DNA of 61,925 nt from a virus, in IMG/VR virus record IMGVR_UViG_3300005338_000002, positions 1 through 61,925 of that record; one strand, 5' to 3'. The notes under the pieces were generated by a model, which saw nothing but the letters and a program-made list of their open reading frames with translations, was not told the origin of the DNA and made no database searches. The translations under genes were made by a program, and so were the position numbers. Positions within the stretch are counted from its first letter, which is position 1; each line of letters starts with the position of its first letter. Shown here piece after piece: positions 25,473 to 61,304 of the stretch.

Positions 25473-26498
25473 CTACGCGATCTTGATACCGTACATCCGG
25501 GCGAAGGACCGGTTGTTCGGAATCCAGAGGCCAACGCCCCAGTCAACCACCCAGTTGAACCGTACGAGGTTCGTGGGGTCGAGCCCGGCCGCCTGCACGC
25601 GCAAGGGCTCGGGCTGCCATCCGCAGAAGGTTTCCGTGCCGTAGTTGACGGCGTAGATCGAGGTGTAACCCGTTCCACCGTCGTTACCGCTGCTGTCCTC
25701 GTTCTGCGAGATGATGCGGGTGGTCTGGTCGGCCTTGCGGCCAACGTCGCGGAGCTTTGCGCCACGGAACGTGCGGATCTTGCGATCGAACGCATCCGTG
25801 GTAGTGTCGAAGCCCGCGCCTGGACCGGCTTGGCGAACGGCATACGCAAACGCACGCCGCATGTAGTCGTTCATGTAGAGAACGACGTTATCGCCATCCT
25901 CGGCCATGATGAAGTCGAGAAGCTGCTCGACGTAGCGGAGAAAGGCATTCGCCGTAGCCGCCGTGATACCGGTCGGGCTCAGGTCCGCGCCGGTGGCGGC
26001 GAACTTGAGTTCCGTGGGCATTCCGTAAGCGCCGGGGTTATCCAGCCGGGTCCGCAGTCCTGCGAAGGCGTCGAGGTTGCCGCCCGAGTTGTGGGCGTTG
26101 TTGATGAACGTGTAGTTGAAGTTGTATTCGAACGCTGCGAAGAACAACTTGGACTGCACGTCGATAGGCGGGCTGATCGCGTTGGTGTCGCGATTGATCC
26201 GCTTATCGATCTGGAACTGCGCCCGGACCAGGAACATCCGCTCGGAGTAGTCGGTCAGCTTGCCGATGACTACGGTCGGGTCCTGATTGACGGCGGTCCA
26301 GATGTTCGTCATGCTCGGCAGGGCGCTGTTCTGGTCCATGCGCGCGCCGAGCATAATCAAGGTGTCCTTCGTTGCGAGAGGGATATCCTTGACGATATTC
26401 TTCGTCCGGTAGAGAGAGTCCGTAAACTTCTCCACCACCGGATCATTGCTCTGTGTGGCGTAGACATCGAGTGTCATCGCCTGTGGTGAGAATGCCAT
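25473..26498 (-). CDS. Major capsid protein
   Basis: 341 residues. Features match HK97-fold coats of podo- and siphoviruses: an N-terminal region with VVEKFTDSLYRTKNIVKDI, a long spine-helix region around NAFLRYVEQLLDFIMAEDGD, VLYMNDYMRRAFAYAVRQAG, and a C-terminal beta region (IYAVNYGTETFCGWQPEPLRVQ ... WVVDWGVGLWIPNNRSFARM). Preceded by a scaffold gene and followed by a small head protein, the usual capsid order. Ends with TAG. Confidence 0.8.
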   Translation of the reverse strand: MAFSPQAMTLDVYATQSNDPVVEKFTDSLYRTKNIVKDIPLATKDTLIMLGARMDQNSALPSMTNIWTAVNQDPTVVIGKLTDYSERMFLVRAQFQIDKRINRDTNAISPPIDVQSKLFFAAFEYNFNYTFINNAHNSGGNLDAFAGLRTRLDNPGAYGMPTELKFAATGADLSPTGITAATANAFLRYVEQLLDFIMAEDGDNVVLYMNDYMRRAFAYAVRQAGPGAGFDTTTDAFDRKIRTFRGAKLRDVGRKADQTTRIISQNEDSSGNDGGTGYTSIYAVNYGTETFCGWQPEPLRVQAAGLDPTNLVRFNWVVDWGVGLWIPNNRSFARMYGIKIA

Positions 26499-36516: not shown

Positions 36517-36851
36517 GACTGATTATACAACCTCTTCGCCTCTTGGGAGGCTAGGAACCGCTGCCTCACTAACTCCTGAAGCTCGTACTCTTCCCGGTCG
36601 CACGGATGCACCAGCGTTTCGGGAATGTCGTCATCGTAGAAGCAATCGGTGATGCGAATCGTGCCGTCAGGCTGCGCCTCGCCGATCACAGCGTAAGCAT
36701 GATCCTTGCCGTAGTCAACGCCAACCACCGCGTTCTTACGCCGCTGCGCGGCAACGATCTCCGGCGTCAGTAACGACGCGTCGTAGGCCCCTAGGGCCAC
36801 TGCGCCGAGGGCCTTGAGGGCGTCGGATAGGAATTGACGGCGGGTACTCAC
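36504..36851 (-). CDS. Hypothetical protein with a twin-arginine-like N-terminus
   Basis: 115 residues. STRRQFLSDALKALGAVALG matches the S/T-R-R-x-F-L consensus of Tat signals with a moderately hydrophobic stretch after it. The body (AVVGVDYGKDHAYAVIGEAQ) looks like the first strands of an RNase-H-like fold with a VDYG aspartate. ATGA overlap with the upstream gene. Whether it is exported or merely starts with two arginines cannot be told from sequence. Confidence 0.5.
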   Translation of the reverse strand: MSTRRQFLSDALKALGAVALGAYDASLLTPEIVAAQRRKNAVVGVDYGKDHAYAVIGEAQPDGTIRITDCFYDDDIPETLVHPCDREEYELQELVRQRFLASQEAKRLYNQSWMS

Positions 36852-37246
36852 AGTCCCATCGGTCCTTTCCCGGACTCGTTAGCCGCTTCGCGGACGAGCG
36901 CCCGGATCTCAATGATATCGGAGTGCGAAGCGCCACGGCCAGCGGACGCGAGGTCGCCCAACTTGGATTCGGCGATCGTGATGGGCGTCATGCCTTCAGG
37001 GGTGGCGGGTGGTATCGGAGTTGGTTGAGTTACGACGGCGTGTGTGTACCGGGCCGCCGCCCGAGCTGTGTGCGGGCCGAGCAAATCGAAGCACTCGTTG
37101 AGCATACGGAAATACGCATAGGGATCGGCCTTAAGCGCCTCGCAAGCAAGATCGTAGTCCCGGCGTTCCTCCGGCCCCATAGCCGCGATGTCGGCGTTCA
37201 GCCTTGATCGTAACCCGCGATGTCCTCCCGGCTCGTGTCGGTCCAT
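36848..37246 (-). CDS. Hypothetical protein, first gene of the late block
   Basis: 132 residues, helical (ERRDYDLACEALKADPYAYF), proline-rich centre and a basic/acidic C-terminus. GAGG ribosome site before the ATG. It is the first coding gene after the long structured leader, about 680 bases from the putative late promoter. Not recognised. Confidence 0.55.
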   Translation of the reverse strand: MDRHEPGGHRGLRSRLNADIAAMGPEERRDYDLACEALKADPYAYFRMLNECFDLLGPHTARAAARYTHAVVTQPTPIPPATPEGMTPITIAESKLGDLASAGRGASHSDIIEIRALVREAANESGKGPMGL

Positions 37247-37261
37247 ACATCCTCACATGTT

Positions 37262-37910
37262 ATCGGCGCGGACATCTGCCCGGTCAACGGCGAGTTGAGC
37301 GCCTCATCAGGCAGAGGAGCAACATCGGGAAATGACCCAAACCGTGTTGCCGCCGATCAATAATTCAATAGCCGCCGTCCTTGTACTTGAACGACCTCTC
37401 GCATGATGGGCGAGTGCCCGGCCTTTCACCGGGATCTGCGGCCCTGGTCCACGCCGAGAGACTTGCACTCCCAACACCCCGGTTTTGCCGGGTGCCTCTG
37501 CTTGGGCTACGCGCGGATGCTGCCCGTCTCTCCGGGCCGTCACGCCTCGTTTTTTTCTTTCTTCAGCCCTGCGGGCGTCCCAAGGGCTGCTTCGTCACAG
37601 TCTGGCTGCCCGGCTCAGGACCTCGCGCCCCTCGGCGAGCAGCCTCTCGTTAGCGGTAGACCTACCGCACTCCCGTTCGTCGCCTGAGCTGCCGGGCGAG
37701 AACAGGAAATGGGTGGGCCGTGATTCCCCGGCTGGGTATCGGCCCTTCGCGCTGCTGCTAGCGGCTGGCGCGAACAATTGTCGGGTACCTCTGGATCACA
37801 GGTTGCGCACCTCCCCAGAGCGTTTCGCCGTTGCGCTGCGCCCGAACTCGTTACACTACCCTCCGCTAGAAAGAAAGGCCCGATCCCGAACTTCTGAACC
37901 GGGCCAATGT
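37262..37910 (-). ncRNA. Highly structured noncoding region (candidate large RNA or late leader)
   Basis: No credible gene between 37247 and 38056. Nearly every segment pairs locally: 37398-37402/37410-37414, 37417-37421/37429-37433, 37475-37482/37488-37494 (one bulge), 37564-37570/37583-37589, a 12-bp stem 37608-37619/37683-37697 (3-base bulge) enclosing 37622-37626/37635-37639 and 37653-37659/37662-37668, then 37715-37720/37740-37745, 37746-37752/37768-37774 and 37789-37794/37815-37820. A leftward promoter lies at 37932-37960. Long multi-hairpin phage RNAs such as GOLLD and ROOL are a precedent by size only; no sequence match is claimed. Confidence 0.6.
37868..37905 (-). terminator. Early terminator just downstream of the late promoter
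   Basis: Arms 37900-37905 and 37877-37882 (GGCCCG/CGGGCC in the leftward RNA), followed by TTTCTTTCT at 37876-37868. It lies about 20-55 bases after the predicted start of the leftward promoter, so unregulated transcripts would end as a short RNA. A second register (CCCG with CGGG) inside the loop offers an alternative fold. Confidence 0.6.
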
Positions 37911-37931
37911 TCCGATGGAGGTTACGTAGCC

Positions 37932-37960
37932 ATCCTAGCATACACGCGCTTGCCTGTCAA
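37932..37960 (-). promoter_or_regulatory. Leftward (late) sigma-70 promoter
   Basis: On the bottom strand TTGACA (37960-37955), 17-base spacer, TAGGAT (37937-37932); predicted start near 37925. It points into the structured region and the late operon and is back-to-back with the rightward promoter at 38002. Confidence 0.75.
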
Positions 37961-38001
37961 GGACGCGACGGAAAATAGTCGAGATTATTTTGGCGGAAGG
38001 C

Positions 38002-38030
38002 TTGCAATGCGCATGTGTACATGATATACT
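38002..38030 (+). promoter_or_regulatory. Rightward sigma-70 promoter
   Basis: TTGCAA (38002-38007), 17-base spacer, TATACT (38025-38030); predicted start near 38037, followed by GGAGG and ATG at 38057. Forms a divergent pair with the leftward promoter at 37932-37960. Confidence 0.75.
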
Positions 38031-38056
38031 AGATTATCAGACGGATGGAGGACGAA

Positions 38057-38380
38057 ATGACTGCTACCCAAACCGAAAAGCTCGCTCGCCTTGCTCACTA
38101 CGGAAGCCAATACGAGATCGTTGCCGTAAAGGCCGGCGAGACTGTACTCCTCGGCTACGCTGCCCGCCATAGTCGCTCCGGCCTCATCGCTGTTATCCGC
38201 CGCCGGGGCGAAGATGTTGTCATGCTCACGGGCTCTGAGGAGTTCACCACCGGCAAGAAGGCCGCCGATCCGATCACCTGCGGCCCGTGGCTGATCAAGT
38301 TCTCGGGCCGCACACAGCGCGAAGCGATCATGTGCGGCGAGCGCCCGTGGATCGGCGATGTCGTTAAGAACTCGATCTAA
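38057..38380 (+). CDS. Hypothetical early protein
   Basis: 107 residues from ATG 38057, ten bases after the start of a GGAGG site (an upstream in-frame ATG at 38045 lies in the ribosome site itself). Beta-rich: YEIVAVKAGETVLLGYAARH, AVIRRRGEDVVMLTGSEEFT. No recognised family. The leader motif GATGGAGG is shared with the promoters at 39008 and 40242. Confidence 0.65.
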   Translation: MTATQTEKLARLAHYGSQYEIVAVKAGETVLLGYAARHSRSGLIAVIRRRGEDVVMLTGSEEFTTGKKAADPITCGPWLIKFSGRTQREAIMCGERPWIGDVVKNSI

Positions 38381-41459: not shown

Positions 41460-41672
41460 CTATTCTCCCGCCTTCGGCCTCTTGGGCATCCATCCCCGGC
41501 CATCACATCTCGGGCAATCATAGAACTCGCCCCGCCACCTAGTACCGCTACCGCGACAGAGGGAGCAGGCTTGTTTCCGGGCGTTCGCGTAGGCCGCTTC
41601 ACGCGCCTCCTGCGCCAACTCCTCGGCGGTCGGTTCGATGAATATGCTCTCACCGGAGGGTGTTAGCGTCAT
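41460..41672 (-). CDS. Small DnaJ-type zinc-finger protein
   Basis: 70 residues from ATG 41672. A helix (EELAQEAREAAYANARKQA) precedes CSLCRGSGTRW and CPRCDGRGW, two CxxCxGxG motifs that make one zinc site as in DnaJ. Common among small phage proteins that bind nucleic acid. Overlaps the upstream gene by 23 bases. Confidence 0.6.
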   Translation of the reverse strand: MTLTPSGESIFIEPTAEELAQEAREAAYANARKQACSLCRGSGTRWRGEFYDCPRCDGRGWMPKRPKAGE

Positions 41673-41994
41673 CGGCCTTGTCCTCCGCTCTCTCAACGCA
41701 CATGGCCCCGCATCCCGCGTACCCGGCCATGTCCACCCAACTATCACGCTTGCCCGGATTAACGGCTGCCCGCGTCATCTTAACGCCCACCATCATCAAA
41801 CATCCGATTTCCGGGGGAATGTCCGGGATCGGCTCACGCAGCAGGTCCGGGTGTTTGGTATTGAGCCAGTGCTTGAGCACAGCCGCCCAGATCCGACCGT
41901 TGCAAGTGTAATCGTTGGCAGGATGCCCGTATGCCTGCTGCCGATCGCCATGAATCAGGCGGTTAGCCTCTTCGAGTACTGTTTCGTTGCTCAT
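41650..41994 (-). CDS. DUF6378-like phage protein
   Basis: 114 residues from the ATG in a TGATG overlap. The pattern EEANRLIHGDRQQAYGHPAN, then a hydrophobic helix and KRDSWVDMAGYAGCGAMCVE is characteristic of a widespread small phage family (D-R-x-x-x-Y-G-H-P ... D-x-A-G-Y) found near nucleotide and replication genes. The family's biochemical role is unknown; a nucleotide-binding fold has been suggested by its conserved polar residues. Confidence 0.65.
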   Translation of the reverse strand: MSNETVLEEANRLIHGDRQQAYGHPANDYTCNGRIWAAVLKHWLNTKHPDLLREPIPDIPPEIGCLMMVGVKMTRAAVNPGKRDSWVDMAGYAGCGAMCVERAEDKADDANTLR

Positions 41995-58837: not shown

Positions 58838-59260
58838 GTGAAAAGCTACGTTCGGCCCCGGCTCACTCTCTACCGGTGCGACTTCTGCAAAAAGCACGGC
58901 ACGAAAGCTCGGATCGGCAAACACGAACCTCAATGCTTCGGCAATCCTGATCGTATCTGTGCCGTCTGCCAGAACGAGGGCCGGGTTGAGGTGGGTTACG
59001 ATGGGTGCCCGCGCCCGCATCCTCGATGGGACGACGGGGCCTGGATTCCCGAAGGCGTTGCCACGTGCCCGTACTGTGTGGCTTACCACCTCCACCTCGC
59101 CGGGATTTACTTCCAGATGACGAAGAACTTGGGCTGCCTCCCCACGATTGAGAACGTCGGGGGTCTGTCCATCACCATCCCGTCGTACTTCCCCGGATCG
59201 ATCAAGGACTACGTTGACAGTCTATACAAGGAGCACAGGTTAGGCTATCCTACGGAGTAG
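58838..59260 (+). CDS. Zinc-binding protein in reverse orientation to the spike
   Basis: 140 residues, GTG start with an AAAGG site. CDFCKKHGTKARIGKHEPQC, CAVC and CPYCVAYH give six cysteines plus histidines, a double zinc finger. The C-terminus is alpha/beta (TIENVGGLSITIPSYFPGSI). Its end overlaps the convergent spike gene by 11 bases. Confidence 0.6.
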   Translation: MKSYVRPRLTLYRCDFCKKHGTKARIGKHEPQCFGNPDRICAVCQNEGRVEVGYDGCPRPHPRWDDGAWIPEGVATCPYCVAYHLHLAGIYFQMTKNLGCLPTIENVGGLSITIPSYFPGSIKDYVDSLYKEHRLGYPTE

Positions 59261-61304
59261 CCGATACCACCGTAGACGCCGCCGACCGGCCTAATGCCCC
59301 GCCTTCTGCCGCGACGTAGTAGTAGTACGTCTTACCGGGCGTACGACCAGTGTCCGTGAACGTCCCGCCAACGATGCCCTGCTTAATGATCGTAAAGCCG
59401 ATCGTGGCCGAGGTCGAGCGGAATACGGTGGAGGCCGTACCGGGCGTTGGTGTCCACGCGAGGGCCACAGAGCCCTTCACAGGAACCGTAGCCGTAAGCC
59501 CGGTCGGCGGGGCCGGGAGCTTCGGGATCAGTGCCACGCCGGCCTCAAGCGCCTCCACGGCCGTATTCACCGGCGCAAGCGCCGTAGCGATGGCGGTATT
59601 GACATCGCCGAGCGTGAGGCCGCCCACGGCCGGAACCGGCGTAGGAGGCGATCCTGGGGCCACTGACGGGGTAGGCAGAGCCGTTCCGTTGATAACGGCC
59701 TGCTGCCAATTGTTCAGAGACGCTCCAGCATCGGTGAGAGCCATCACGGCCCCACTGAGGCTATCAACCAACGGCATGGAATCCTGCCCGAGCGTCGTCC
59801 ACGCCCACCCGGCCATGCCGACGATACCGGATGCCCTTGCGGCTTCGAGTTTCACCGGGTCAAGGTAGTGGTGCTCAGACATGAGCACGTTCGGAAGTCC
59901 CGCCACACGGGCGGCAAACGTCGTAGGGTCCTGCCCGTAGGAATGCCATCCCATGAAGTCGGCGGTTCCTGCTGGCAGAGGATTGGCGGCACATCCCCGG
60001 CCATCGCCCTGAAAGCCTTCAAACGGGCACAGGATCACCGTGGAGGGCTGCACGCTGCGGATTGCGCCACAGAGCATTGCTGCGGTCGGTCGCCATGCCT
60101 CCCATGTCGGGTACCGGTGGGGCTCGTTGAGGATGTCGATCACGACCGGGACACCGGCGTACCGATTCGCCACGAGGACCAAGAGCTTGCCGAGCGCATC
60201 TTCCCGGTCGGTAAGCGTTGCCCCGCCCGGCATGTCCTGCGGGGCAATCACAGGGATCATCCCCGCCGATAGGATGTTCTGCACGACCGAATCAACCAAG
60301 TCGGCATACCAGTGATACGCCCAATATTTGTCTGGATCGTAATTCGCCCGCATCCACTTCATGCCGAGGGAGGCGAGCAAGCGGAAATAACCGGGGGAGT
60401 TATGCGCGGGCGTCGGCTGAGACGCAAGGGCGTTGCCGAAGTTGCCGCCGATGGAGACACCGGCCTTCCCGGTCGGCCCGAACGCGGCCTTGATATCGGG
60501 ATAGGTTGCGGGATCGACCTTGACCACCCACTGCCCCACCGGGATCATTGCGCCCGGCCACACCCATCCGCTGATCTGTTTCCATCCCGAGTTGTAGACG
60601 GCCCCTTGGAGGTTGTAGAGCCCCGGCGTGCTTGGCATCGTGATATGCGACACACCTTTGAACGAAAGGTAATTGTCCAAGGGATCGCCGCCGGGCGTGA
60701 ACTGAGTGCCCCGGATGAATGGCTGCCCCCATCCCGCCGTGCCCTTGATGAGCACGTAGGTATCGACTGCCCCGGTCCCCTGCGCCTCCGGCCCGGTCCA
60801 CGGCCCGGCAGGTATCCGCACCTCGTACGGGATGTTGATCTTCCCGTCGGGGCCAGGGATCAAGGCGTTGTCCTGGTCGAGCAGGAGGGTAGGCGTCGTA
60901 ATCCTGATCTGCGTCGTCGTGACCACAAGCCCGAGATCGGGGCCGTAGAATCCCGCATTCCCGGCAGGCGGCGGGATGAGCTGCGGGGAGGGCGTCACCG
61001 GCTGCCACGGCAGTTCAGTGTTGAAGTTGGAGCCGACCGCAAACAGGACCATCCGCCACTTCGTGTAAGTGCCGACCGGCGCGGGGCCGACGATGGAGAA
61101 CGTATTCGCCATGTTCGGGAACAGGGCTATGGGATGCGCGGGATCGGAGTTGAACGTCTGCCATGCGTTCGTGTCGGCATCCAATGCGTAGACCTGTGCG
61201 ATGGCGTTCTGCCCGTCGCCGGGGCCGGTTACGATCGTTCCGCTGATTGTCACGGTGCCGAGGTCGGCGCTACCGGATGCGGTGACTGATTTTATAGTAA
61301 GCAT
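59250..61304 (-). CDS. Tail-spike/depolymerase: GH5-like glycoside hydrolase with fibronectin III end
   Basis: 684 residues. Beta-rich N-terminal Ig/carbohydrate-binding-like modules (residues 1-250), then a TIM-barrel: VVIDILNEPHRYPTWEAWRP supplies the NEP acid/base glutamate and NVLMSEHHYLDP the likely nucleophile, as in GH5/clan A enzymes. The end (LPAPPTGLTATVPVKGSVAL ... YYYYVAAEGG) is a fibronectin type III domain. Probable receptor-binding or capsule-degrading spike. It lies outside the main late operon. The start has AAGGGG ten bases upstream. Virion attachment is inferred. Confidence 0.75.
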   Translation of the reverse strand: MLTIKSVTASGSADLGTVTISGTIVTGPGDGQNAIAQVYALDADTNAWQTFNSDPAHPIALFPNMANTFSIVGPAPVGTYTKWRMVLFAVGSNFNTELPWQPVTPSPQLIPPPAGNAGFYGPDLGLVVTTTQIRITTPTLLLDQDNALIPGPDGKINIPYEVRIPAGPWTGPEAQGTGAVDTYVLIKGTAGWGQPFIRGTQFTPGGDPLDNYLSFKGVSHITMPSTPGLYNLQGAVYNSGWKQISGWVWPGAMIPVGQWVVKVDPATYPDIKAAFGPTGKAGVSIGGNFGNALASQPTPAHNSPGYFRLLASLGMKWMRANYDPDKYWAYHWYADLVDSVVQNILSAGMIPVIAPQDMPGGATLTDREDALGKLLVLVANRYAGVPVVIDILNEPHRYPTWEAWRPTAAMLCGAIRSVQPSTVILCPFEGFQGDGRGCAANPLPAGTADFMGWHSYGQDPTTFAARVAGLPNVLMSEHHYLDPVKLEAARASGIVGMAGWAWTTLGQDSMPLVDSLSGAVMALTDAGASLNNWQQAVINGTALPTPSVAPGSPPTPVPAVGGLTLGDVNTAIATALAPVNTAVEALEAGVALIPKLPAPPTGLTATVPVKGSVALAWTPTPGTASTVFRSTSATIGFTIIKQGIVGGTFTDTGRTPGKTYYYYVAAEGGALGRSAASTVVSATP

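Follow-up and report, generated by a model that had tools for sequence, protein, structure and literature searches.

Organization of the locus

IMGVR_UViG_3300005338_000002 is a 61.9-kb virus record with a G+C content of 60%. The window analyzed here is that entire stretch of 61,925 nucleotides, and tailed phage genes were recognized in it, including those for terminase, portal, major head protein and a DnaB-like helicase. TerL matched proteins of cultured phages at ~30% over a third of its length and no better, and the portal protein was 22-25% identical to those of cultured phages and 21-27% identical to those of 39 portal relatives in IMG/VR. Relatives of the phage itself were found neither by single-protein scans of IMG/VR and 84,980 prokaryote genomes nor via neighboring proteins, TerL or DNA motifs in IMG/VR and GTDB. 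Elsewhere in the window, positions 59250-61304 (-) encode a phage protein of 684 aa whose glycosyl hydrolase family 5 (cellulase) domain was recognized at E = 1.3e-11, and positions 41460-41747 (-) encode a small cysteine-rich protein with CxxC repeats, by eye of the DnaJ-central/Anti-TRAP type; the DnaJ-central and Anti-TRAP Pfam families were matched within the scanned protein set, in which the member proteins were not named.

The features of the locus are collected in Table 1. As an earlier note on this DNA had proposed, there is no credible gene between 37246 (-) and 38045 (+), where a rightward gene block begins, and none of the internal ORFs, all of which were scanned, matched a Pfam or PHROG family. 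The same note had placed the interval between divergent promoters and the first late gene, and a divergent pair of sigma-70-like promoters was indeed found (Table 1). The virion genes are most likely transcribed leftward from the 37960-37932 promoter, because the genes directly upstream (38045 onward) point rightward. Judged from the sequence, the transcript would start near 37925 and run leftward through the interval to the virion operon; the predicted length of the RNA is about 680 nt. The product of the first leftward gene had no family match. The GAGG ribosome-binding stretch of this gene, at 37254-37251 (-), may pair with the 5′ end of the RNA: the helix that closes the 5′ and 3′ ends has a predicted probability of about 0.8, and pairing of this kind would fit control in cis.

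Table 1. Positions of features in and around the gene-free interval (window coordinates)
Feature	Position	Strand	Details
First leftward gene	36848..37246	-	132 aa; starts block running into virion genes
Possible second, badly decayed tRNA (weak lead)	37366..37443	-	starts 2 nt past first CCA
tRNA-like cloverleaf	37445..37516	-	72 nt, ends ACCA; R2 model; closest to tRNA-Trp
Competing long hairpin	37456..37532	-	GAGAGAC/GUCUCUC; uses T-stem 3′ strand; z = -3.2
Stable hairpin	37564..37589	-	CAGCCCU/AGGGCUG; pair probability 0.99
Stable hairpin	37604..37644	-	GGCUGCUCG/CGGGCAGCC; pair probability 0.99; z = -2.2
Stable hairpin	37670..37708	-	z = -3.9; pair probability 0.90-1.00
Domain around 23S-like module	37759..37868	-	closed by extended non-rRNA helix
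23S-like module	37779..37849	-	relative of 23S rRNA nt 48-120 (E. coli numbering), helix 7 three-way junction
Kt-7-type kink-turn	37789..37820	-	CUCUGG-GGA-GGU-GCGCA-ACC-UGU-GAU-CCAGAG; 3b.3n = U.G
First hairpin	37877..37905	-	10-bp G+C-rich stem, then UUUCUUUCU; -17.4 kcal/mol, z = -4.4
Leftward sigma-70-like promoter	37932..37960	-	TTGACA-17-TAGGAT, extended TG; consensus match 10/12
Rightward sigma-70-like promoter	38002-38030	+	TTGCAA-17-TATACT

Folding of the interval

The density of hairpins had been taken as the mark of a large structured RNA. We found it to be no higher than elsewhere in this GC-rich genome. Compared with shuffled sequences, the whole interval folded with z = -0.57 on the plus strand and z = -2.84 on the minus strand, and of 40 control windows of 679 nt taken elsewhere in the genome (minus-strand mean -0.7, sd 1.7), 4 had minus-strand values of -2.7 or below. 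The strongest folding among these control windows was that of 25700-26378, inside the major head protein gene (z = -6.7 minus and -4.9 plus; 12 shuffles). A 12-bp stem enclosing two hairpins, which had been singled out, proved ordinary (z = -0.10 plus, -0.63 minus). A plus-strand RNA was rejected, as no promoter reads into the interval in that direction and folding on that strand is weak. The earlier note did not say which strand was meant; the minus strand is indicated jointly by the direction of the promoter, by folding and by the two homologies described below. The proposal of a structured RNA thus stands by virtue of these two modules, a 23S-like and a tRNA-like one, which lie on the minus strand behind the minus promoter, and falls insofar as it was drawn from hairpin density.

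Single hairpins were scored by their stability relative to dinucleotide shuffles (z-scores in Table 1). The first of them lies about 50 nt past the transcript start and has a U-rich tail, and it is possibly an intrinsic terminator or attenuator of the virion operon; the evidence for a terminator is a match at the level of pattern, with 1 found versus 1.4 expected.

A relative of 23S rRNA on the minus strand

When the minus-strand RNA was compared by blastn with plasmid records totaling 7.3 Gb, 23S rRNA from Flammeovirga came up without having been looked for (84.6% over 52 nt, E = 1e-4), and the same query matched Acetoanaerobium 23S rRNA in six places. Rfam identified the matched loci in these plasmid records as LSU. 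A pattern derived from the module found 17 loci in genome contigs, and those that were aligned to E. coli 23S rRNA were 23S genes of diverse bacteria; in one Bacteroidota genome the match lengthened to 63 nt (75%). We then have, from a purpose-built covariance model (R1) of 14 bacterial 23S segments corresponding to E. coli nt 48-120, a match at 37849-37779 (-) of 38.8 bits and E = 3.5e-9 when the whole window was searched without filters, the E-values of this model being rough because of short calibration. The match covers model positions 1-72 of 72, and the second-best match in the window scored 12.5 bits. Thirteen of the 14 members of R1 had been picked by their similarity to E. coli 23S or another rRNA and not to the phage, while the remaining one, L076, came from the phage-derived pattern.

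L076 (IMGVR_UViG_3300019244_000354) is a 3-kb contig on which maturation, coat and replicase-like ORFs of an ssRNA phage can be read from the sequences. Just upstream of the maturation gene, at 3079-2896 (-), it carries 23S rRNA nt 10-187 (E = 9e-28). Since this rRNA part is ordinary 23S, the contig is probably a chimeric assembly; no close relative of it was found.

In a match score the stem of a hairpin is counted twice, and the flanks of the module were therefore tested alone. The 20 flank positions outside the hairpin matched 23S rRNA with p = 5e-7 versus random flanks, and with p = 5.5e-6 when the two closest rRNAs were left out. The phage copy retains 27 of the 33 columns that are invariant in the rRNAs. 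In a joint alignment, two-sided changes were present at 8 pairs versus 3.7 in shuffles, so the structure is supported by covariation. The third closing pair is A-U in 17 of 17 rRNAs and G-C in the phage alone; as read from the alignment, the phage copy thus has a compensatory change of its own.

The module has the same three helices as nt 48-120 of 23S domain I and a Kt-7 with U.G at 3b.3n. It differs in an apical loop that is 2 nt shorter than most and in a closing helix that is specific to the phage. Homology to 23S rRNA stops near the pairs that close the junction, and from there phage sequence extends the helix; a boundary that coincides with that of a structural unit, continued by a phage helix, is what would be expected of a kept module and not of a random fragment. 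The phage-specific closing helices (UAGCGG/CCGCUA, AACGA/UUGUU and UCGGG/CCCGA) have pair probabilities of 0.90-0.98, and enforcing the 23S-like fold costs 0.4 kcal/mol relative to the minimum free energy (MFE) fold, with the kink-turn bonus not counted. The base of the rRNA-like domain has, at 37853-37868 (-), a ribosome-binding-like GCGGAGGGTA followed by GTG-TAA, an immediate start-stop. The nt 48-120 module is all of the 23S rRNA that the phage has, and its location is the phage leader and not an rRNA operon; a search of the window with LSU and SSU profiles (nhmmer --max) found no other 23S or 16S segment.

The kink-turn within the module shows the standard Kt-7 features, namely G.A, A.G and, at 3b.3n, U.G, as read from the sequence and a structural scan. 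U.G is the 3b.3n pair in 92% of natural Kt-7, and L24 binds Kt-7 in the ribosome (Huang and Lilley, PMC5061560). Kink-turn-like motifs alone were not significant genome-wide and are expected by chance. The motif by itself therefore proves nothing, and it is the surrounding 23S match that carries the proof.

A tRNA-like element

A second covariance model (R2), built from 25 tRNAs and likewise used to search the window without filters, matched 37516-37445 (-) end to end, including the ACCA, with 33.9 bits and E = 2.9e-7 over the window; the next-best match in the window scored 12.0 bits. BLAST aligned 37487-37453 to tRNA-Trp (88.6% over 35 nt), and tRNA-Trp was also the best at the element among 45 tRNAs from other bacteria (E = 4e-4). 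In isolation, the 72 nt have the cloverleaf as their MFE fold (-28.6 kcal/mol). With 16 nt more of 5′ flank, the competing hairpin in Table 1 becomes the MFE fold and replaces it.

The element shares with tRNA-Trp the cloverleaf, the length of 72 nt, the ACCA and the sequence of the anticodon arm and T-arm. It differs from a tRNA in its short D-arm, in an altered T-loop (UGCAAGU) and in an anticodon loop of 5 nt (CAAAA) or, read otherwise, of 7 nt without U33 (GCAAAAC). The tRNA elbow features U55 in the T-loop and GG in the D-loop are absent from it. On these sequence features, the tRNA-like element is not a decoding tRNA. Neither ARAGORN at default settings nor Rfam RF00005 called a tRNA here; ARAGORN reports the element at relaxed cut-offs, with 12 of 300 shuffles reaching -ps90. 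The case for a tRNA is weak from ARAGORN alone and became convincing only once the R2 covariance model was used.

Other identities were considered and rejected. For a tmRNA or an intron-containing tRNA, ARAGORN gave nothing but noise, at relaxed thresholds. An attP, in which a tRNA 3′ half serves as integration site, is not favored, because the cloverleaf has its 5′ half as well and none of the scanned proteins was recognized as an integrase. Directly beyond the element, a second, badly decayed tRNA is possible and is a weak lead: R2 scored it at 8.4 bits, with E = 0.049 for the interval and 4.5 for the window.

Known RNA families and other phages

The length of the interval had been likened to that of GOLLD and ROOL, together with the remark that no signature was recognizable. 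Membership in either family was not borne out, in that no Rfam family reached its gathering score in the window, and the remark no longer applies, given the 23S three-way junction and the tRNA-like cloverleaf. A permissive Rfam search of 37000-38100 (E <= 5) listed nothing except Twister-sister (RF02681) at 37455-37378 (-). This match, right at the CCA end of the tRNA-like element, is sub-threshold, with 23.5 bits (E = 0.021) where 34 are required for gathering; it departs from the family at several positions of the core and shares its place with the possible second decayed tRNA.

The phage RNA is like GOLLD and ROOL in its phage origin, its length of several hundred nt and its association with a tRNA-like element, and unlike them in lacking an Rfam sequence or structure match and in its 23S module, which is undescribed for those families in the text consulted (PMC12286853). 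Neither module was found in the portal relatives examined from the set of 39. Motif and homology searches of IMG/VR and a phage collection found no 23S-like module in other phages; the 23S-module matches in phage records fell in unannotated records of 2.6-3.7 kb that look like host rRNA. Across IMG/VR, GTDB and the phage collection, the modules of this phage are one single case for which relatives were not found.

A possible link to ribosome assembly

The anatomy of the RNA, with its two modules, is well supported by the sequence comparisons, and from it we infer a function. Our tentative preference, held at somewhat less than even confidence, is that the RNA is a virion-operon leader or a noncoding RNA in which the 23S mimic binds uL24 and the tRNA-like part is a processing signal. 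Transcription from the leftward promoter would produce the leader of the virion operon, or a noncoding RNA that is cut from this leader. As a mimic, the 23S module would bind the same partners as the corresponding piece of rRNA, foremost uL24 and perhaps uL29 or uL22; alternatively, its partner could be 50S assembly intermediates. Assembly of the 50S subunit nucleates on domain I of 23S rRNA, to which uL22, uL24 and uL29 bind first, with uL24 as an assembly initiator (PMC9935924). Abundant phage transcripts might titrate uL24 and so slow the assembly of new 50S subunits, or free uL24 might regulate virion-operon expression as a ribosomal protein does through its leader. uL24 also contacts other parts of domain I, and these are absent from the phage RNA. 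The principle shared with ribosomal-protein leaders would be that a leader imitates the r-protein binding site of rRNA, but those leaders precede bacterial r-protein genes, whereas the phage RNA precedes virion genes. We know of no uL24 leader family. In the tRNA-like element, the acceptor/T-arm helix and CCA would have been kept for RNase P and the decoding loop would not, a pattern that fits an RNase P processing signal; cleavage there would separate an upstream RNA of ~410 nt from the late mRNA.

Several other explanations were weighed against this one. The interval could be a relic, consisting of fragments of host stable RNA (a 23S piece and one or two tRNAs) that arrived by illegitimate recombination and are decaying without function in a promoter-proximal spacer. 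The damaged anticodon loop and T-loop of the tRNA-like element would agree with such an origin, as would the possible second tRNA, which follows directly and is worse decayed, and the lack of any other rRNA piece in the window. Neutral decay breaks pairs, however, and a decaying captured fragment should end at random places. The 23S piece instead ends structurally, retains most of its invariant positions, is paired throughout and carries a compensatory change at an invariant pair; likewise, the cloverleaf keeps nearly all of its pairs intact despite a new acceptor stem, and the order and spacing of the modules are unlike those of a host rRNA operon. We consider a relic unlikely, and function is favored over it on account of the structural boundaries and the compensated, unusual closing pair. 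Chance resemblance, in which a G+C-rich hairpin spacer would contain one hairpin that looks like rRNA by accident, is compatible with a hairpin density that is ordinary for the genome and with kink-turn-like motifs that alone are expected randomly, but it would have to account for two independent covariance matches that share a strand and lie within 410 nt (E = 3.5e-9 and 2.9e-7), when nothing else in 62 kb exceeds 12.5 bits. Both matches strongly disfavor this reading, and we regard it as very improbable.

The remaining two explanations grant the RNA a role of another kind. It could act in cis as a leader of the late operon, with 37905-37877 as an attenuator subject to phage antitermination and the rRNA-like part recruiting the host rRNA antitermination machinery. 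A stable hairpin with a U-rich tail about 50 nt past the promoter, upstream of the virion operon, is what such a leader might contain, and phages are known to employ Nus complexes that contain r-proteins (PMC10931766). Against this, no boxA-like element was apparent by eye, and the terminator match is at chance level. The 23S piece, moreover, belongs to no rRNA antitermination signal known to us, and we judge the proposal improbable. A new ornate RNA akin to GOLLD and ROOL, forming a multimeric cage or scaffold with the tRNA and 23S parts as tethered cargo or a ribosome dock, would be in keeping with the length of ~680 nt, the late-gene context and the attached tRNA-like element. GOLLD linkers sometimes contain tRNAs, and ribosome binding by GOLLD has been reported in pull-downs (PMC12286853). 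The phage RNA matched neither GOLLD nor ROOL in Rfam, and its overall folding energy is ordinary for the genome; such an architecture seems decidedly improbable here. To our knowledge, GOLLD, ROOL and similar large phage RNAs have no known function.

Returning to the mimicry of rRNA, the full form of the preferred reading is that a transplanted piece of host 23S rRNA, its fold intact, sits in the virion-operon leader and acts as a decoy or sensor of uL24, joined to a tRNA-like RNase P site, and thereby disturbs or reads ribosome assembly. We put it forward as a doubtful but real possibility. Literature searches found no phage rRNA mimic, which is not proof of absence. On the practical side, small purpose-built covariance models easily find diverged rRNA and tRNA modules that whole-LSU and tRNA searches with Rfam can miss. 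Within the literature searched, this would be the first known case of rRNA imitation by an RNA of a DNA phage, and, if the reading is true, uL24 and the domain I proteins would be concrete, testable partners for a phage RNA.
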